From: Gracilibacteraceae bacterium
GTDB taxonomy: Bacteria; Bacillota; Desulfitobacteriia; Desulfitobacteriales; Syntrophobotulaceae
Length of the DNA stretch: 45,195 nucleotides
Direction of reading: 5' to 3'
Assembly: GCA_031266805.1 (NCBI GenBank)
Contig: JAISAH010000110.1
Span: forward strand, 1 to 45,195
The position numbers were made by a program, and so were the translations under genes. Below the pieces are notes generated by a model. The model was not told the DNA's origin and did no database searches. It was given only the letters and a program-made list of their open reading frames with translations. Positions within the stretch are counted from its first letter, which is position 1; every line of letters begins with the position of its first letter. Of the stretch, positions 21,781-34,366 are shown piece after piece.

Positions 21781-23169
21781 CTAAAACATATCCTCAAACC
21801 GCACAAGCCGAACGTTACCCCCTTCGTCTGCTCTGGAAACGAGTCTGGCGGTGAAACCTGTTTTGGAAAACAGCCAGAGCCATACTTTTTCGTAGTGAAA
21901 CAAATGTGTTTTTTCAGTAAGCGCCGTAAGAACATCCACGTCCACCGGGGCTTTTCTCCACTTGCATTCGCAGAACAGGGCGCTGCCTTTGCGGTAGGTC
22001 AGCACGTCAATTTCCTCCTGCCGCTTTTCGTGAGGATTGTTCCCCCACCATCTTCCGATTTTGCCGGGCAGGAACGGGAGCGCGTTCTTTTTGGCCTGCT
22101 CCAGCAGGTACTGCTTGCAGATTTCCTCAAAGACCAGCCCCATATACGCGGGCAGTTCCGTTGCTATCTCAGAATCGAAAACAGCGCTGCCGAGGCTGGA
22201 CACAATGCCGCTCATATTTGGGAACACGAACCGATACCAAAAGCGGAACATCATATCGTCTAAAAGGTAAATGCTCCGTTTTGACGACGTTTCGGTCACA
22301 GGCAGTTCCTTTTTCACAATGCCAAGGGACATAAGGGAATTGAGATATTTGGCGCATTTATTACTCTCGATCCCGCATTTCGTGGCGATTTCATTCAGAC
22401 GCGAAGCGCCGTCCGCGATTGCTTCTATGATGCCGTTGTAGGTGGCCGGTTCACGCAGTTCCTGCTTCAAAAGGTTCGACGGTTCCTCAAACAGAGCGCC
22501 GGAAGCGGTCAAAAAGAGATCGATGATGTTTTCCGCCGCCGATTTCGTGGAATTAATCTTATTCAGGTATTCGGGAACGCCGCCTGTTACGCCATAGAGA
22601 ACGGCCTTGTCCTCTTTTGAGAACGACTCCAGAAACGGCAGCGCTTCGAAGAAACCAAACGGTGTTATTTTGAACTGCGCCGTCCGTCTGCCGTAAAGCG
22701 GGCTTTTATAACCAAGAACCTGGTTTTCCATGAAACTCATGCTCGACCCGCAAAGGATCAGGAACAGCTTGCTCTCCTGAAACCGCGCGTCTATATGCGC
22801 CTGCAGGATCGAAGAAATAGGGCGGTATCCTCCTGCGAGAAAAGGATATTCGTCAATCGCCAGCACGACTCTGCTGTCCTTTGAGATTTGATAGATGTAA
22901 TCGAACGCTCTTTCCCAATCGGAAAAGAAGGCATTTTTAGCAAGCTCTCTGGCCGTCACGGAATACACGTCGCCGGAAAAAACGTTCAGGTTCACCGCGC
23001 CGTCAGCTTCGCGGGCGACAAAGTAAATCGCCTTTTTATCTTTGATGAATTCCTTGATGAGCGTGGTTTTCCCCACGCGTCTGCGTCCATAAATAATCGC
23101 GCACTCAAATTTGTCGCTGGCATACATTTCATTGAGTCTTTTGAGTTCCGCATCCCTGCCGATAAACAT
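21781..23169 (-). CDS. DUF234-type AAA ATPase with nuclease-like C-terminus
   Basis: The protein of 462 residues has Walker A GRRRVGKT (28-35) and Walker B LAIDEYPFL (about 100-108) of the archaeal-type ATPase family. A winged-helix part follows (ATKCGIESNKCAKYLNSL). The C-terminal DUF234 domain contains EEIDVLTY and CECKW, a PD-(D/E)xK nuclease-like pattern. These genes are widespread in anaerobes and often sit in mobile regions; their function is unknown. The ATG at 23169 has AGGGAGTG upstream; the longer frame from 23223 would translate the repeats at 23192-23236. It is a single-gene unit. Confidence 0.85.
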   Translation of the reverse strand: MFIGRDAELKRLNEMYASDKFECAIIYGRRRVGKTTLIKEFIKDKKAIYFVAREADGAVNLNVFSGDVYSVTARELAKNAFFSDWERAFDYIYQISKDSRVVLAIDEYPFLAGGYRPISSILQAHIDARFQESKLFLILCGSSMSFMENQVLGYKSPLYGRRTAQFKITPFGFFEALPFLESFSKEDKAVLYGVTGGVPEYLNKINSTKSAAENIIDLFLTASGALFEEPSNLLKQELREPATYNGIIEAIADGASRLNEIATKCGIESNKCAKYLNSLMSLGIVKKELPVTETSSKRSIYLLDDMMFRFWYRFVFPNMSGIVSSLGSAVFDSEIATELPAYMGLVFEEICKQYLLEQAKKNALPFLPGKIGRWWGNNPHEKRQEEIDVLTYRKGSALFCECKWRKAPVDVDVLTALTEKTHLFHYEKVWLWLFSKTGFTARLVSRADEGGNVRLVRFEDMF

Positions 23170-23191
23170 AATAGTCACTCCCTGACAATCA

Positions 23192-23236
23192 AACTGATGA
23201 GTTTGCAACTGATGAGTTTGCAACTTACGAGTTTGA
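23192..23236. repeat. Three tandem 15-bp units upstream of the DUF234 ATPase
   Basis: AACTGATGAGTTTGC occurs at 23192-23206 and 23207-23221, and a variant (AACTTACGAGTTTGA) at 23222-23236. The first with its flank forms CAAACT-N4-AGTTTG, a dyad. They lie 23 to 67 bases before the start codon, where an operator would act. Confidence 0.8.
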
Positions 23237-23332: not shown

Positions 23333-26300
23333 TCAGCCGATCTGAGCTAGGATCGCCGGATCTTTGATCGTCTTATCCTCGGCCAGGAGGATGATCTTGG
23401 ACATGACTTCCGCCGTGCGCGGGTCGTCGTCGGCAAAGGGCAGGAACACCCGGCCTCGGTGCTGGCTGGGCACGGCCAGAATGTTCACCGCGCCGCGGCC
23501 CATTTTGTGGACCTGAGCGCTCCCCAGATGCACGGTGTATTCGCCCAGTTTGCCGGTGATTTTCGCGTGGCGGCCCTCGACGCTGACGTTTTCGATGTGC
23601 AGGAGCCGCAAAAGCTCCGCCACGATGACGGCCCGCATTTCCACGGTGGAGAGACTGGCCTCCGGATCGACGCCGCCGACGTGAGCCACGGACACCACCA
23701 GGTCGATGTCGCGCATGATCTCGGAAAAAATCACCGGGGGGATCTTCTCCAGCGGGATCGCTTCATGGGTCTTGCGGTCAAAGAATTCCACGGTCTCCAG
23801 CGTGGGAGCCTCGATGTCCGCCGGAGAAAACCAGTCCGCGGCGGCGTACAGTTTGACATAGATGTTTTCCCGGAAATAGACCCGCTGCAGGCCCGTCTCG
23901 TAGTCCACGGTCCACAGGCGGCTTTTCAGGAGGGCCACGGTTTTTTTCGGCTGCACCTGATGCCCGGCGTAGCGGCGGGAAACGGTCCCCGCCTCCCGCT
24001 CGTCCTCATTGAGCAGGTAGAGCTCCCGGAAGATCTGTTTGAACGGCTGCACCAGCTTCTGCTCAAAAGCGTAACGCTGGCAGTCCCGCCACGTCCCCAA
24101 AGTATACAAGTCGAAAGGATGGGCCAGACGCACCTGAGCGCCGTCGCCCAAGCGCTCCGCCAATTCGGCGTACAGGCCGGACGCCGCGGCGGCGCCGCCC
24201 TCGTCCAAAGTGACAAAGACCAGCTTGGTCAGGAGAGGCGCCACCACCGGATGCTGCATCAAAGCCTTGATTTCCCCGAAGGGGAAGACGTCGCGGTTGA
24301 CCATGACGAGTTCCAAATTTTCCCTGGCGCGTCTGTACTGGGCCTTAAGGGCCGTGACGCTTTCCTTGCACTCCAGGACATAGGGATCTTTTTTCAGGGC
24401 CCCGGGGACGGAAGCCAGCGTCTTGCCGTTCTTTTCGCAGATCAGGGCCGCCTCGCCCCCGTCCCGCACGGCTACGCGCACCTGGTATTCGCCGATGGTT
24501 TTACCGGTGAAATAGTCCCCCAGACTCTCGACTTTCAGGATCTCCATGCGCCAGGTAAAACGCAGCGTATTGGCAAAACCGGCGTTACGGGCCAGGTTTT
24601 CCAGAGCGATGGCGCAGGCTTTTCCTTCGCTGGCGCGGCGCTGGGCCCCAAAAGTCTTGCTTTCCTTCAAAAAAAGCTGGATGTTTTCATAGCGTTCCAT
24701 AGCCGCCTGCTGCTCTTTCCCTTTTTTCAGCGGAATCAGCGCGTAACTCAGGAGCTTGTCCTTGTTGCGTTTTTCGTGGATCTCCCGCCACAGCGCGGCG
24801 GTGTCGAGTTTCCCCAGCACCGCGTCGGCAAAAAGCTGGGCCCGGCGGTGGTTCGCTCCATCCGTCAAATATTTGGCGCAGTCGTAGACCAAGGCGAACC
24901 GTTCTTCGCCCAGAGTGGCGTGAGCGTCCTTGAACCAGGCCACGTCGAAGGCGCCGTCGTTGAATTCTTCCGGCGTGATGGGGCTGTAGCGCGCCACTTC
25001 CGTTTCTTTTTCCGCGGAAAAACTGTCGTTGACATGGGCGTGAAAATACCAGACCGCGCTCTGCAGGCCCGGCCAGCCCAGATAATCGCTCACAGGGCCG
25101 ATCCAAGCGGGCGCGTACATGGCCGCCTCGATCAGGCGTTTATCGGCGATCCTCCCGGCCAAAGCCTCCCGCAACGCCGCGGCGCCTTCTTCCGGCCCGG
25201 GACGCGAAGCCTTGAGCAAACTGGAGAGTACGATTTTTTTCGTCGGATCGCCGCTGCTGTAGATATAGCCCCGGACAAAAGTTTCCTTACCCATGGCCAC
25301 GAGGATCTGGGCAAAGGTGTCCGCCCCTTCGTGCCAGCCTATCTCCAGGGCCAGAGCGCTGACTTCGGTGGCGCTGTCCCCCCGCTTGAGCTCTATCTCA
25401 ATCACTCTCGCCGCCCCCTCGTCGGCGGTTTTCTTCAAAACAGGGTACTGCTCGACGATTTTTTTGGTCCTTTCCCAGCGAATCTTCCCCGCGTAGTTGC
25501 GGATGCAGTTGGCGTTACCCAAAAACACCGTGCGGTACATGGCGTCGATCTTGACGATACCCGCCTCCACCGCCCGCGCCACGTCCACGTCATTCATATT
25601 CACATAAAACATATCCGACAGGCGGCCCAAGGTGAAACAAAGGCCGGTGTAGGCCAGAAAATGCTCGTCCGTGCCGGCGGCTTTTCTCAGCTCGCTCATG
25701 AAAAAAGTCACTTCTTTGGTATCGGCGAAGGTACAGTCTTTTCTCCGGCCGTAACCGTAACTCCTATCGTTTTCCTCATAAATGGGCCGCTTCCACTCCT
25801 CCGCGGCGACCTTGGCGGCGATATCGGCCAGAGCGCCGTAAAGGGCGGCAAAACGCTCGTCCTCGGCGTATTCTGTTCCCAAAATTTGGATGATATGTCT
25901 GGCCATCTCGCCGTATTCCCGCCCATGGCAGTAGACATTGAGCTTGTTTGTTTCTTTGGCGCGGAAAAGTTTTTCCACGACAGCGTTCGTCTCATCCCGG
26001 TAATCCGGTTCGTAGACGTCCATGTAGTCCTCGACTGATTCCATAAATCGGAAAAGAATGATCTCGCTGAAGGTGACGGCGTTATCTTTGATCCAACCGC
26101 GCCATACCTCCGGCAAAACGAATTTTTCAAAAGGCGTGAGGTTCTCGTCGTCATTCGCCTCGGCGCGGGCGCGGGGCCAGGTCAGGCCGCCCAGCGCGGT
26201 TTCCTTGTCGCCGTCGTAGCTGTAGATCTTGTAGGTGTAGTCCCGGTTTGCTTTGATCAGTTCGCAGAGGGCGTCGAAAATTTTGGTGATCCGCGCCTTG

Positions 26301-28270
26301 TGGCGGCCTTCAAAAAGCCCCGGGGCGCCGAATATCTGCTCCAGCCGGTGTTTTTTATCCACGGCGGGAAAGGGGAAATCGGGGATATAGGCGGGATCAT
26401 ACAGGCCGAAACCGTTAGCCGGGCCGTATTTTTCCTCCGCAGCCCCCAGAGAGTCGACCAGCACCCGCTCTCTGTCGCTCATCTTCGGCATGAGGGCGCA
26501 AAACTCCGTCGCCGCGGCGCGGTCCAGTTTTTCCGTCTTTACGAGCTGAGTCAGCATATCGAGGCCGCCCAGACGCATGTTTTCGTTTTTGTCCGCCAGC
26601 AAGGCTTTCGCCGCCTCCACCGGGCGTTCCCCGCCCATGCCCAGCAGGATCTTGACGGCGCTTTGCCGGATGTCTCCGGTTTTTAAGGCGAGCAGAGCGG
26701 CGACGGCTTTTCCCTCCTCCGCGGCCAGACCGGCTTGCTGGGAAAATTCCGTGACCGTGCTCAGGGCCTGCGTGCGGACGCTCATGCTTTTATCGTTTAA
26801 GGCGGTGAAAACGAAGGCCCGGCCTTTGGCCTCCCGGGGATCCGCCAGGAAAAAGCGGATAAACGCGGCCCGGTTGTCCGGATCCGCTCCGGGCATGATC
26901 TCCAGGAGCCGGGCCGTTTTTTTCGGGTCAAAGTCGTAGCCGGCGACGGTGAGGATCCGCGAAAACAGGTCGCCCGGCGAGAGCGAGAGGTCATGCCAGG
27001 GGAAGGGTTTGCCCTGAGCCAGATAACCCTTGGCCGGAACGAGGGGAGTCATGGCCAGCAGCGCTTCGAATTGCCGGTCCCGCGCGGCGCCGTCCGCCAA
27101 AATCTCATGCTCGCGGCATTTGACGCCGAAGATCTCCGCCGTCTGATATCTGCTGAAGCTGCCGGTGAGGTAATTGGTAAAAACGAGGGAAAGCACGTCC
27201 AGATCCGTCTCGCCCAAAAGCCGGGCGGCGGCGAAGGATTGCAGGGCGCTGTTTTCCGTCTGGGCCAGAAAATAGAGCGCTACCAATTTTTGGTATTTAG
27301 CGCCGTTCAGCAATTTGTCGATCAAGGTGAGGGCGACGTTCATCTCCCGGACGGACGCGGCCCAGAGCGCGGCGTAGATCTCCGTGACGTCCGCGCTGGC
27401 CGCGCCGGCCGCCAGAGCCTGCGCGTCGGTCAGATACGTATAGCCCAGCGTCAGGAGTTTGGCCGCCACGCGCTTGTCGTCATATGTTTCGCCGAGGCCC
27501 ATCCAGACGTCGAGCGCCCTGACCGCCGAGGAATAGCGGAGCAGGTCGTTGTCCAGGACGACTTTCATCAGACCGATGAAGGCTTCCACCCGGCCGTTGT
27601 CGGCGTTTTCCAGAATAGACTGGCGCAGGCCCTCCTGCAGCCGCGCCGCCAGGAGCGTCCCTTCCAAAAGCCGGTGCAGCTCTTCGTCAGCGCTTTTGAG
27701 GATGCCGTTGATGATGGCGTCGGAAAGGAGTTTGGTGTTGTTGTCGCCCAAGATGATATCTTTCACGGCGGCGGCGGCTTCCTTGTCCCCGGCGTCGAGC
27801 CGCGCGGCGAGAAAATCGCCGTACACCATGGTCCCGAGCCATGCTCGCCCCGCTGAGTCGGCGTCCGGGGGAGAAGTCAGGTCTTTGACGAGATCGAAGT
27901 CCTCCCAGGAGAAAAATATAGAATCCAAAACGCTGATGAAGCGGTCAATGTAAGGTTTTACCTCTTTGGTTCGGAATGAGCGGCGGTAGGAGGAGGGAGA
28001 GTGAACGTAGAGGTTCAGCCGCCCGGCCGCCTCGCCCGCCCAGTCCGCCGCGCGTTTACCGTGAATGACCGTAAAAAGTTCCCGGGGGCCGTTATCGAAT
28101 ACTGCGGCGAGCGTTTGGGGCGAGCCTTGCAGCAAAAGCCGGGACAGCGTCTCCCGCGCTTCCCGCCGCTCATACCAGTCGCCTTCCTTGCAGGCGACCA
28201 GCGCCTGGGCCACCGCGCCGGCGCGGCCTTTCTGCTGCCGGAGTTTGCCGATGATCGCGTCCTTGTCCAT
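23333..28270 (-). CDS. Giant DUF4132-domain protein
   Basis: The 1645-residue protein has an N-terminal half of helical, HEAT-like repeats (for example ALNDKSMSVRTQALSTVTEF and LADKNENMRLGGLDMLTQLV near 490-580). The C-terminal part carries the DUF4132 signature, including HPFDLYTLGTWRDCQRYAF, DWFSPADIEAPTLE, SEIMRDIDLVVSVAHVGGVD, and a closing NILAVPSQHRGRVFLPF with LLAEDKTIKDPAIL. Relatives occur in many bacteria, some next to MoxR ATPases and von Willebrand proteins; the biochemical role is unknown. It has no signal peptide or membrane segment. It starts 18 bases after the small protein at 28289-28705 and shares its promoter, so the two probably act together. Confidence 0.85.
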   Translation of the reverse strand: MDKDAIIGKLRQQKGRAGAVAQALVACKEGDWYERREARETLSRLLLQGSPQTLAAVFDNGPRELFTVIHGKRAADWAGEAAGRLNLYVHSPSSYRRSFRTKEVKPYIDRFISVLDSIFFSWEDFDLVKDLTSPPDADSAGRAWLGTMVYGDFLAARLDAGDKEAAAAVKDIILGDNNTKLLSDAIINGILKSADEELHRLLEGTLLAARLQEGLRQSILENADNGRVEAFIGLMKVVLDNDLLRYSSAVRALDVWMGLGETYDDKRVAAKLLTLGYTYLTDAQALAAGAASADVTEIYAALWAASVREMNVALTLIDKLLNGAKYQKLVALYFLAQTENSALQSFAAARLLGETDLDVLSLVFTNYLTGSFSRYQTAEIFGVKCREHEILADGAARDRQFEALLAMTPLVPAKGYLAQGKPFPWHDLSLSPGDLFSRILTVAGYDFDPKKTARLLEIMPGADPDNRAAFIRFFLADPREAKGRAFVFTALNDKSMSVRTQALSTVTEFSQQAGLAAEEGKAVAALLALKTGDIRQSAVKILLGMGGERPVEAAKALLADKNENMRLGGLDMLTQLVKTEKLDRAAATEFCALMPKMSDRERVLVDSLGAAEEKYGPANGFGLYDPAYIPDFPFPAVDKKHRLEQIFGAPGLFEGRHKARITKIFDALCELIKANRDYTYKIYSYDGDKETALGGLTWPRARAEANDDENLTPFEKFVLPEVWRGWIKDNAVTFSEIILFRFMESVEDYMDVYEPDYRDETNAVVEKLFRAKETNKLNVYCHGREYGEMARHIIQILGTEYAEDERFAALYGALADIAAKVAAEEWKRPIYEENDRSYGYGRRKDCTFADTKEVTFFMSELRKAAGTDEHFLAYTGLCFTLGRLSDMFYVNMNDVDVARAVEAGIVKIDAMYRTVFLGNANCIRNYAGKIRWERTKKIVEQYPVLKKTADEGAARVIEIELKRGDSATEVSALALEIGWHEGADTFAQILVAMGKETFVRGYIYSSGDPTKKIVLSSLLKASRPGPEEGAAALREALAGRIADKRLIEAAMYAPAWIGPVSDYLGWPGLQSAVWYFHAHVNDSFSAEKETEVARYSPITPEEFNDGAFDVAWFKDAHATLGEERFALVYDCAKYLTDGANHRRAQLFADAVLGKLDTAALWREIHEKRNKDKLLSYALIPLKKGKEQQAAMERYENIQLFLKESKTFGAQRRASEGKACAIALENLARNAGFANTLRFTWRMEILKVESLGDYFTGKTIGEYQVRVAVRDGGEAALICEKNGKTLASVPGALKKDPYVLECKESVTALKAQYRRARENLELVMVNRDVFPFGEIKALMQHPVVAPLLTKLVFVTLDEGGAAAASGLYAELAERLGDGAQVRLAHPFDLYTLGTWRDCQRYAFEQKLVQPFKQIFRELYLLNEDEREAGTVSRRYAGHQVQPKKTVALLKSRLWTVDYETGLQRVYFRENIYVKLYAAADWFSPADIEAPTLETVEFFDRKTHEAIPLEKIPPVIFSEIMRDIDLVVSVAHVGGVDPEASLSTVEMRAVIVAELLRLLHIENVSVEGRHAKITGKLGEYTVHLGSAQVHKMGRGAVNILAVPSQHRGRVFLPFADDDPRTAEVMSKIILLAEDKTIKDPAILAQIG

Positions 28271-28288: not shown

Positions 28289-28705
28289 CTAAAAGCGCCG
28301 CCCGGCCAGCATCACCAGGCGGATAAACGTGACGGTATCGCCGTCTTTCAAAGTAAAGGGAGCGCCCGGCAGGGCCTCGTCCTCGTTGACCAGAACCCGG
28401 TAGATGCCGTCGGCAAAGGATTGCAGGGCGTTTTGCACCGCTTTTTCCTCATCCTGATCCTTCTCGTTCACGTGGCTGCCGAAGCCGATCTTGCCCGTAT
28501 GTTCCCCGTCCTCCATCTCCTGCCGCGACAGGTAGTGAAAGAGCGGCGCGTCCACCGCCTTGGCGTTGTAAGCCCGGACGTTCTCCCGCACCAAGTGCTC
28601 GATCAGCTTCTCCGGCGAATCCGTGGCGCCGGGAATGGTCCAGGCCTGTTTTTCCAGCATGTCCCGCCGTTTGCCGGCGGCTTTGACGCGGACAAAAATA
28701 TCCAC
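28289..28705 (-). CDS. Small DUF4132-linked protein, beta-grasp-like ends
   Basis: The 138 residues start at GTG 28705 with GAGGAGG seven bases upstream. The first 45 residues (DIFVRVKAAG..., then SPEKLIEHLVREN) and the last 35 (RVLVNEDE..., PFTLKDGDTVTFIRLVMLAG) read like the strand-helix and closing strands of MoaD/ThiS-type beta-grasp proteins, separated by an acidic insert of about 50 residues. It ends GRRF, not the Gly-Gly used for thiocarboxylation or conjugation. Family not recognised. It heads a two-gene operon with the DUF4132 giant, so a partner or substrate role is a fair guess; the fold is inference. Confidence 0.6.
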   Translation of the reverse strand: MDIFVRVKAAGKRRDMLEKQAWTIPGATDSPEKLIEHLVRENVRAYNAKAVDAPLFHYLSRQEMEDGEHTGKIGFGSHVNEKDQDEEKAVQNALQSFADGIYRVLVNEDEALPGAPFTLKDGDTVTFIRLVMLAGRRF

Positions 28706-28753
28706 GCGGACACCTCCTCATCCCAGGATTATTTTTTGGGATCCGTTTTCCAT

Positions 28754-32086: not shown

Positions 32087-32089
32087 TTG

Positions 32090-33445
32090 GTGATGACGGA
32101 CAGGGAATTCACGCGGGCTTTGCGCCGCGGCTTAGGCAGCGCCGTCGTCGAATTGAAAAACGCGGAAAATAAGGCGGCGCGCCGCAGCGCCTTGCTGCGC
32201 TGTTGTCTGCGCGATATTTCATACGACTGGCAGTCGGAAGGCACAAAGGGATATTATTTGTACACGGCTATCCGCGCTCTGGGCGGCGAGGATTTTTTTG
32301 AAAAACCCCTGATCGGCAGATTTCTTTCGCGCTGCCCGGACAGGCTGTTCCTCCAGCTGGCGGCGATACTTTCCTGCTATGCCGGCGACGGCAGCGAGGC
32401 GGCGAAAGAGGCTTTCCATGTGAAATACGACTGTTTTGCCGGTAAAAACGGCCGCTTTATCCGGAATTCGTCCGTAGACGAGGGATTTCAGTGGGACGAG
32501 GTGGTGTTTCAGCTTTTTGCCATAGACGGGTTTTCCGCGTTCAAGCGATACGCGGCGGACGCCGGCGGGATCCTTTTGCGTAATCCCGGCGAGCCCGCCA
32601 TATGGGACGACTGGTTTACAGACAGGGCGGAAGGCGTATTTGGTAAAAAAAGGGTCGCCGTTTTCATCAATAAAGCCTCCGGACGCTCAGACGCTGTCAA
32701 GGCTCTGGCGGACGCCCTGAAAGCCGGCGCCGATTCACGCGCGCGATACCAGCCCGGACGGGAGACGATGACGCTCAGCGGCCTGATCCAAGCGGTGCGG
32801 GAAGCGGCCACGGGAGAATATCCCTACTATAAAACGGTGGGCTTCCGGCGCTCGTTTATCACAAATGCCTCCGATACTGAAATATCGGAACTGGCCCGCG
32901 CCGCTCTGCGCGAAGAAGATGAAACGGTAAAGGCGCTGCTGCTGGACATGTTCCGGCGCCGGTCGTTTCCGCTGGATATCACTCCGCTCCTGGACTGCGC
33001 CCGGTCAGACAACGAATTGCTGGCGGAGGCGGCCATAGACTGCTTAAAAGGGGTCAAGGAGAAAAGGATCCACGATTTGGCCATATTTTTGCTGACAAAA
33101 CCCAGCAGGGCGAATCTGTCGGCGCTGGCCTTGCTGGAAAAAAACTACAAAAAAAGCGACGATCCCCTAATTTTTGCAGCGGTAAAAAAATCCGGCGTTT
33201 CCCATGGCGTTCAGCAGGCCATCCGCGACATATACCGCCGCCATCGCTCGTCCGGCGCGCTTCCCGCCTTGCTCCGCGTCTACCGAGACGGGGAATGTTC
33301 CTATTGCCGACGCGGCATTGTGGAAGCGATGCGCCATTGCGGGGTTTTGCCGGCGGATATTCTGGAAGAATGTTTGCACGATTCTTATGACGATACGCGA
33401 AAATTCGCCCAGCGTCTTTTGGCGCGCGGTGCAAACAGATGCTAG
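32090..33445 (+). CDS. HEAT-like helical repeat protein, unknown
   Basis: The 451-residue protein is nearly all helical, with paired-helix repeats in its second half (such as ISELARAALREEDETVKALL and NELLAEAAIDCLKG) typical of HEAT-type scaffolds. The N-terminal 200 residues are not recognised. No enzyme motif, signal peptide or membrane segment is visible. Start codons TTG 32087, GTG 32090 and ATG 32093 are clustered; GTG has the best distance from GGGAGAG. It begins four bases after the secreted protein's stop and its own stop overlaps the DUF3990 gene, so the four genes 30416-34366 form one run. Confidence 0.65.
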   Translation: MMTDREFTRALRRGLGSAVVELKNAENKAARRSALLRCCLRDISYDWQSEGTKGYYLYTAIRALGGEDFFEKPLIGRFLSRCPDRLFLQLAAILSCYAGDGSEAAKEAFHVKYDCFAGKNGRFIRNSSVDEGFQWDEVVFQLFAIDGFSAFKRYAADAGGILLRNPGEPAIWDDWFTDRAEGVFGKKRVAVFINKASGRSDAVKALADALKAGADSRARYQPGRETMTLSGLIQAVREAATGEYPYYKTVGFRRSFITNASDTEISELARAALREEDETVKALLLDMFRRRSFPLDITPLLDCARSDNELLAEAAIDCLKGVKEKRIHDLAIFLLTKPSRANLSALALLEKNYKKSDDPLIFAAVKKSGVSHGVQQAIRDIYRRHRSSGALPALLRVYRDGECSYCRRGIVEAMRHCGVLPADILEECLHDSYDDTRKFAQRLLARGANRC

Positions 33446-33891
33446 TCTATCACGGCGGATATCGCGCGATAGAAAAACCTGAAATCCGCGCCGCTAAGAA
33501 CAATAAAGATTTTGGGCGCGGGTTCTACTGCACGGAACTGCGGACGCAGGCTGACAAATGGGCGAAGCGCTTCGATACGCCCATAGTGAGCGTGTACGAA
33601 TATACGCCAAAGACCGGGTTTAACACGCTGACCTTTGCCGAAATGACGGACGAATGGCTTGATTTTATCGTTGCTTGCCGGAGCGGCAAACCGCATAACT
33701 ACGCGGTTGTCGAAGGGGCGATGGCAAACGACCAGATTTGGAATTATATCGCCGATTTTGTCGGCGGCGTTCTGACCCGCGAGCAGTTTTGGGTGCTGGC
33801 AAAATTCAAATATCCTACGCATCAAATAGCGTTTTGCGCGGCTCCCGCGCTGGAATGCCTGAAATATGCGGAAAGTTATGAGGTGAGGTGA
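33439..33891 (+). CDS. DUF3990 protein, putative ADP-ribosyltransferase toxin
   Basis: The 150 residues show the DUF3990 pattern: VYHGGYRAIEKPEI at the N-terminus, NNKDFGRGFYCTELRTQADKWA, and a central NDQIWNYIADFVGG. The YHG and GxGFY motifs resemble the NAD-binding parts of ADP-ribosyltransferase-fold proteins, and the family is usually paired with small helical antitoxin-like proteins. Toxicity is inference. Its ATG overlaps the HEAT-like gene's stop by seven bases; the next gene starts four bases after its own stop. Confidence 0.75.
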   Translation: MLVYHGGYRAIEKPEIRAAKNNKDFGRGFYCTELRTQADKWAKRFDTPIVSVYEYTPKTGFNTLTFAEMTDEWLDFIVACRSGKPHNYAVVEGAMANDQIWNYIADFVGGVLTREQFWVLAKFKYPTHQIAFCAAPALECLKYAESYEVR

Positions 33892-33895
33892 GAGG

Positions 33896-34366
33896 ATGAC
33901 GGAGAGGGAATCAGGGAGAGAGCCGAAACTGGACAACGATTTATTTTTCGTCTGCTCCGTGATCGAGTATATCGGCAGGGCGAGCAAAAACCGCCGCGCC
34001 GACGTCGTGACCGCGCTGGGCAAAGACGTTCTCGCCCGGTATTTAGAGCTGGCGGACGTATACCACTGCGAGCCCATTGAGAATACCGCCGCCGATTTGA
34101 TGGAAAAACGCGGCCTCGCCGCGGGCGGGTTTGATAATACCGTGGGCGTGCCCAATGTTCCCACGGTTTTCGATATAGCCAAGGTTTACAAACGCCTGAT
34201 AGTCAGCGTCGCTGAAAGCAGCGGCTCGCCGCCGATCGACGCTCTGGTCAGCGTTTATACTTCGTGGATAAGCGACAAGATCAGCGATTACAGGTGCAGT
34301 ATGTACTACGAAAACCCGGAATATTTATACCTGTCATACCTTGAGGGCGAACCTCTTAAGGATTGA
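33896..34366 (+). CDS. Candidate antitoxin of the DUF3990 protein
   Basis: The helical protein of 156 residues begins with a DUF3791-like part (DNDLFFVCSVIEYIGR, ALGKDVLARYLELADVYHCE) and continues with a second helical part (PTVFDIAKVYKRLIVSV, SWISDKISDY). Proteins of this pattern are regularly found beside DUF3990 genes and are presumed to neutralise them. Ribosome site GGTGAGAGG. It is the last gene of the run; a stem-loop follows at 34376-34397. Confidence 0.6.
   Translation: MTERESGREPKLDNDLFFVCSVIEYIGRASKNRRADVVTALGKDVLARYLELADVYHCEPIENTAADLMEKRGLAAGGFDNTVGVPNVPTVFDIAKVYKRLIVSVAESSGSPPIDALVSVYTSWISDKISDYRCSMYYENPEYLYLSYLEGEPLKD

Follow-up and report, generated by a model that had tools for sequence, protein, structure and literature searches.

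Layout of the small and giant genes

The window, by which we mean the whole 45,195-nucleotide stretch of Gracilibacteraceae bacterium DNA analysed here (contig JAISAH010000110.1), carries a small gene that is followed, 18 nt downstream on the same strand, by a giant gene. The features of the pair, read along that strand, are:

28712..28719, minus strand: Shine-Dalgarno-like GAGGAGGT of the small gene, strong as judged by eye
28289..28705, minus strand: small gene, GTG start, 138 aa
28276..28282, minus strand: Shine-Dalgarno-like AAGGAGG of the giant gene, inside the 18-nt spacer, strong as judged by eye
23333..28270, minus strand: giant gene, ATG start, 1645 aa, DUF5724-DUF4132-DUF7737
24545..28207, minus strand: DUF5724 region of the giant, residues 22-1242
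23912..24427, minus strand: DUF4132 domain of the giant, residues 1282-1453
23339..23644, minus strand: DUF7737 domain of the giant, residues 1543-1644

The coordinates agree with the 18-base adjacency of a small gene and a 1645-residue DUF4132 gene described in a sequence-only reading of this DNA, and a strong Shine-Dalgarno sequence (by eye) stands ahead of the GTG start reported there. The DUF4132 label holds for one domain, and DUF5724 plus DUF4132 plus DUF7737 is more exact; the DUF5724 region also contains weak HEAT-repeat matches (HEAT_2 at residues 453-513). The motifs LVNEDE and LKDGDTVTF, quoted for the ends of the small protein, are present at its C-terminus. The promoter that the two genes were said to share had only been inferred, and a sigma-70 scan found none upstream of the small gene on the minus strand. 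The next gene downstream of the pair (21781-23223) encodes an ATPase_2-DUF234 protein that matches the PADLOC candidate PDC-S27 (E 1e-61), and on the plus strand genes for a HEAT-like protein, a DUF3990 protein and a small protein without a Pfam match stand in a row (32087-34366).

Conservation of the pair across genomes

A profile of five small-protein sequences, scanned over 84,980 bacterial and archaeal genomes, returned 55 loci. The giant lies downstream of the small gene in 49 of these, and in 48, including the frame-disrupted pair of one locus (L081), no other recognised gene comes between the two. No giant is seen in the other six: four contigs end within or just past the small gene, a fifth (L063) ends 460 nt later, and the last (L036) holds an orphan. 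This orphan, from an Azoarcus bin (L036 5663-6097), is 67-70% identical to the small gene of the window, and no DUF5724 match was found anywhere in its genome. In a Hungatella bin (L044 10708-17884), the small gene and the giant are separated by a type I restriction system with HsdM-, HsdS- and HsdR-like genes (by eye).

Because the scan pattern came from the small protein itself, we added evenly drawn samples of genomes. Nine of 398 sampled Bacillota genomes have DUF5724 above the cut-off, and the same nine have the small gene, which adjoins the giant in every case; the remaining 389 have neither, one of them giving a sub-threshold DUF5724 match. In a second sample, of 338 genomes, the small gene is present in all eight that have DUF7737. 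Of 199 sampled Planctomycetota genomes, 11 have DUF7737 above the cut-off, 11 have the small gene and 10 have both. Fisher values are 1.6e-18 for Bacillota (9/9 against 0/389) and 5.6e-15 for Planctomycetota, and as both ignore genome relatedness the true significance is lower. The unmatched Planctomycetota giant (G752) has a frame open to the contig start, so that its upstream gene is out of view, and the unmatched small gene (G775) belongs to a genome without DUF7737.

Beyond these two phyla, the pair is present in Bacteroidota, Deinococcota and Spirochaetota and in one alphaproteobacterium, and it is found on plasmid or secondary-chromosome records of Bacteroides, Deinococcus (four species) and Novosphingobium. 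Three Treponema bins (L032, L035, L042) hold versions 68-75% identical to that of the window, and lateral transfer or mis-binning is possible for these and for the Azoarcus bin. Distances among the small proteins co-vary with those among the giants (Mantel r 0.96), a value that speaks to joint inheritance only and not to contact. The adjacency of the two genes is far beyond chance, and the neighbourhood survey proposed from the sequence alone strongly supports a conserved pair, with nine of nine Bacillota and 10 of 11 Planctomycetota genomes.

The small gene tracks the DUF4132-DUF7737 module

Two DUF5724 proteins from the window's own family (L027, L028) end before DUF4132-DUF7737, and the small gene is absent at both loci; it is present beside Planctomycete giants that have DUF4132-DUF7737 and little or no DUF5724. 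Taken together, these loci indicate that the small protein tracks DUF4132-DUF7737. The rule is imperfect, as DUF4132-DUF7737 proteins of Acetobacter (L148) and Nonomuraea (L146) have no recognisable small neighbour. Upstream of the two shorter proteins there is instead a CPLCG-type gene (L027 8011-8766, DUF2225 by Pfam; L028 7009-7878, similar by eye), which may be an alternative partner that goes with the alternative C-terminus.

The C-terminus of the giant is modelled confidently (pLDDT 83). Compared with PDB structures it has no convincing relative, the best being YugN (Z 8.4 over 100 residues), and we therefore leave its activity unclaimed. In the predicted structure DUF7737 has the element order of RWD/E2 proteins (helix, beta meander, two helices), and the region gives very weak RWD/Ubc-like matches (CENP-P Z 5.3, Ubc7 Z 4.9); we treat this likeness as a lead only. 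A sequence search of the PDB with profiles of both the small protein and the giant returned nothing significant, and our literature search found no paper on DUF5724 and no published activity for DUF4132 proteins.

A predicted beta-grasp fold with a conserved tail

Searches of NCBIfam and PADLOC with the small protein gave no match, and the search of Pfam nothing beyond noise below the threshold; relatives of the protein give only noise in Pfam and PHROGs, with one weak Pfam ThiS match (E 0.17). An AlphaFold2 model built on a 49-sequence alignment has a moderate mean pLDDT of 68. The predicted elements are strands at residues 2-8 and 20-23, a helix at 31-48, the inserts, and strands at 102-106, 109-111 and 124-129. 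With modest scores, they form the b-b-a-b-b-b beta-grasp topology of ubiquitin, or bb-a-(a-a)-bbb when an additional helical insert, about 35 residues long, is written in. The small protein of Desulfosporosinus (L024 2541-3071, the same as L046) has an in-frame insert of about 38 residues in the middle loop. Nearly all of the best 50 Foldseek matches to the model of the window protein are ubiquitin folds (best E 0.014), including the PI3K Ras-binding domain, ubiquitin variants, MoaD, SAMP1 and TtuB, and VIA-align places human MoaD at Z 7.5 and ubiquitin at about 6.5. A separate prediction for the Deinococcus homologue DR_A0165, described in PMC9650054, likewise pointed to MoaD and SAMP1. The scores are individually modest and persuade through their agreement, so that a ubiquitin/MoaD-like beta-grasp fold, guessed from the sequence with structure prediction of the 138-residue protein as the suggested check, is now supported by predicted topology and structural neighbours.

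Two alignments (A2, A4) show an invariant glycine close to the C-terminus. The window protein ends in TFIRLVMLAGRRF, its last residues being LAGRRF. Tails in Bacillota and Bacteroides read LAGRMW, LSGW, LSG or close variants (many Lachnospiraceae proteins end in LSG or LSGW, with a single glycine), and one Planctomycetota bin (G469) ends in LAGRMW. The C-terminal Gly-Gly of MoaD and ThiS is absent from the window protein and forms the exact end of ten Planctomycete, four Deinococcus and one Novosphingobium homologues. Its occurrence in three phyla suggests that Gly-Gly is probably the ancestral tail.

Comparison with known systems and neighbourhoods

The small protein resembles the MoaD and ThiS sulfur carriers and archaeal SAMP1 in its predicted beta-grasp fold and C-terminal glycine (Gly-Gly in several phyla). 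It differs from them in its partner, a DUF4132-DUF7737 protein with no MoaE- or ThiG-type partner seen, in its helical insert, in the missing second glycine of the Bacillota forms and in the lack of a significant Pfam ThiS match. No MoaE, ThiG or E1 (MoeB/ThiF) gene was found beside the pair, ThiF having been covered by one query that gave no ThiF-like ORF nearby; the genome of the window has two genes of the ThiF family at other places. In bacterial systems of ubiquitin-like conjugation, the modifier gene is accompanied by E1 and E2 genes and often by a JAB protease gene. As in the Bil, type II CBASS and 6a-6e JAB operons, the gene for a small ubiquitin-fold protein here stands beside a partner gene, but no E1, E2 or JAB gene was found alongside (one ThiF query; the 25 most frequent of 182 neighbour families). 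Nor do the 135 flanking proteins reveal a recurrent third gene, the commonest Pfam family occurring in 3 (again among the 25 most frequent of 182 families). In six loci of one Lachnospiraceae group (L064, L067, L073, L074, L075, L077) the pair lies directly or nearly directly upstream of mutS-mutL (by eye).

Escherichia coli YehI/MolR, a DUF4132 protein in a MoxR-VWA-SWIM neighbourhood, shares a DUF4132-related C-terminal region with the giant. Unlike the giant, YehI ends ahead of any DUF7737-like segment (by eye). Its neighbours are yehK-yehL-yehM-yehP-yehQ; no small beta-grasp homologue was found in this neighbourhood, and YehK, considered as a counterpart of the small protein, gave no match. 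MolR is absent from two surveys of beta-grasp proteins.

The homologous pair of Deinococcus

DR_A0165 (SEP068184) and DR_A0166 of D. radiodurans are a homologous pair in the same order: as in the window, the gene for the small beta-grasp protein immediately precedes a DUF4132-DUF7737 gene on the same strand. Identity to the window proteins is 28% for the small protein and 30% for the giant, and DR_A0165 differs in ending in Gly-Gly. A 412-kb D. radiodurans record has the small gene flanked by trxC and the DUF4132 gene, in agreement with the order DR_A0164 (Trx1), DR_A0165, DR_A0166 given in PMC9650054. The thioredoxin gene adjoins the pair in D. radiodurans but not on the four other plasmids with the pair, as far as these are annotated around it, whereas the giant adjoins the small gene in all five records compared.

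DRA0165, putatively in an operon with drA0166, has been reported as a target of DdrO with an operator at -83, and DRA0166 protein rises after mitomycin C in the wild type and not in an irrE mutant (PMC8533742). In line with that report, the RDRM operator GGTTATGCTATTTACATAAC lies 82 nt upstream of the annotated DR_A0165 start (L101 8053-8072). In PMC9650054, DR_A0165 is described as predicted MoaD-like and found only in Deinococcus, with no operator found upstream; relatives in several phyla contradict the restriction to Deinococcus, and the operator at -82 contradicts the lack of an RDRM operator. The same paper reports that loss of DR_A0165 raises resistance to H2O2 and that DR_A0165 and Trx1 pull each other down, and its main text gives no interaction of DR_A0165 with DR_A0166. 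As for SOS control of the Bacillota-type loci, a DinR/LexA-type box was found upstream of the small gene in 0 of 59, the window included, so the case for DNA-damage control is made for Deinococcus only.

Proposed role and alternatives

As their genes stand side by side in bacteria of distant kinship, the radiation-resistant Deinococcus among them, the small protein and the giant very probably work together. The arrangement that we favour, with some reserve, as the probable one is that the giant has the small protein as an obligate beta-grasp subunit, which docks on DUF4132-DUF7737 with both its body and its tail. The tail of MoaD sits in MoaE. In the same manner the small protein, as a beta-grasp protein of the MoaD/ThiS/ubiquitin class, would bind the conserved C-terminal DUF4132-DUF7737 module of the giant, where its conserved tail (L-A/S-G...) would most likely occupy a pocket, and the HEAT-like DUF5724 solenoid may serve as a scaffold. 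Since the second tail glycine has been lost in the window's lineage, the small protein there probably acts non-covalently, and its part in the complex would be structural or regulatory. If DR_A0165-DR_A0166 is a guide, the module would probably be a device of the response to DNA-damage or oxidative stress. The pairing of the genes, the predicted fold, the link to DUF4132-DUF7737 and the conservation of the tail are shown, while the physical complex, the docking of the tail in a pocket and the stress role in the window's organism are inferred. Against the subunit reading stand the main text of PMC9650054, with its pull-down of Trx1 and no interaction with DR_A0166, the moderate scores of the fold model, the orphan small gene of the Azoarcus bin and the Acetobacter and Nonomuraea proteins that have no small neighbour; the 0 of 59 Bacillota-type loci with a DinR/LexA box count against the stress role outside Deinococcus.

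The sequence-only reading had spoken of a conjugation or scaffold system. As no partner of E1, E2 or DUB type turned up among the neighbours covered and the window tail lacks Gly-Gly, conjugation through that tail is unlikely, and a scaffold or non-covalent subunit fits better. That the small protein is a true carrier or modifier is a reading that we think unlikely. Its C-terminal glycine would be adenylated in trans by a chromosomal ThiF/MoeB-like E1 and then thiocarboxylated or conjugated, with the giant as acceptor enzyme, E2/E3-like factor or main target, and the Bacillota forms would be processed after the glycine or have lost the activity. The exact Gly-Gly ends in Planctomycete, Deinococcus and Novosphingobium proteins, the ThiF-family genes elsewhere in the window's genome, the presence of MoaD, SAMP1 and TtuB among the structural neighbours and the very weak RWD/Ubc-like match of DUF7737 are consistent with such a role. 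Against it stand the LAGRRF tail of the window and the single glycine of many Lachnospiraceae tails, as well as the lack of a ThiF-like gene adjoining the pair (one query) and of E1, E2 or JAB families among the 25 most frequent of 182 in the neighbourhood. We give slightly less credence still to a distinct system of ubiquitin-like modification or sulfur transfer. A housekeeping E1 acting in trans would load a beta-grasp protein that has a Gly-Gly tail, and the DUF4132-DUF7737 protein, with a C-terminal domain that may resemble E2/RWD, would receive or deliver it within the bacterial stress response; the Bacillota branch would then have kept the complex and lost the second glycine.

A defence role and a purely thioredoxin-directed role are both less likely than the carrier or modifier. 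That the pair is a phage-defence cassette seems improbable. For it speak the patchy distribution, the varied contexts, the restriction genes that part the pair in the Hungatella bin, the Lamassu-type and MADS-type matches of single neighbours and the match of the window's next gene to PDC-S27. Against it, neither protein of the pair matches PADLOC-DB, and a PADLOC scan of the 135 neighbours for a defence island gave few defence matches, the Lamassu-type and MADS-type ones in single members only. Phage origin was likewise set aside, the pair having no match in phage records or IMG/VR viral contigs. The small protein could also act on thioredoxin as a redox regulator, as proposed for SEP068184, with the giant its neighbour by regulation only. 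The H2O2 resistance of the DR_A0165 knock-out and the mutual pull-down with Trx1 (PMC9650054) speak for this reading, which we nevertheless consider very improbable, as a thioredoxin gene stands beside the pair only in D. radiodurans among the annotated regions and the giant is there in all five plasmids.

The conserved pairing bears on a published protein as well as on the window. DR_A0165, presented as a Deinococcus-specific peptide, becomes one branch of a multi-phylum family, and the main text of PMC9650054 does not take up DR_A0166, the obvious partner, as an interactor. For DUF4132 proteins, which occur in bacteria of distant kinship, a predicted ubiquitin-fold protein in strict pairing is a first concrete handle, one that points to a domain pair, a partner and residues (the tail glycine) with which the function of DUF4132 may be tested.
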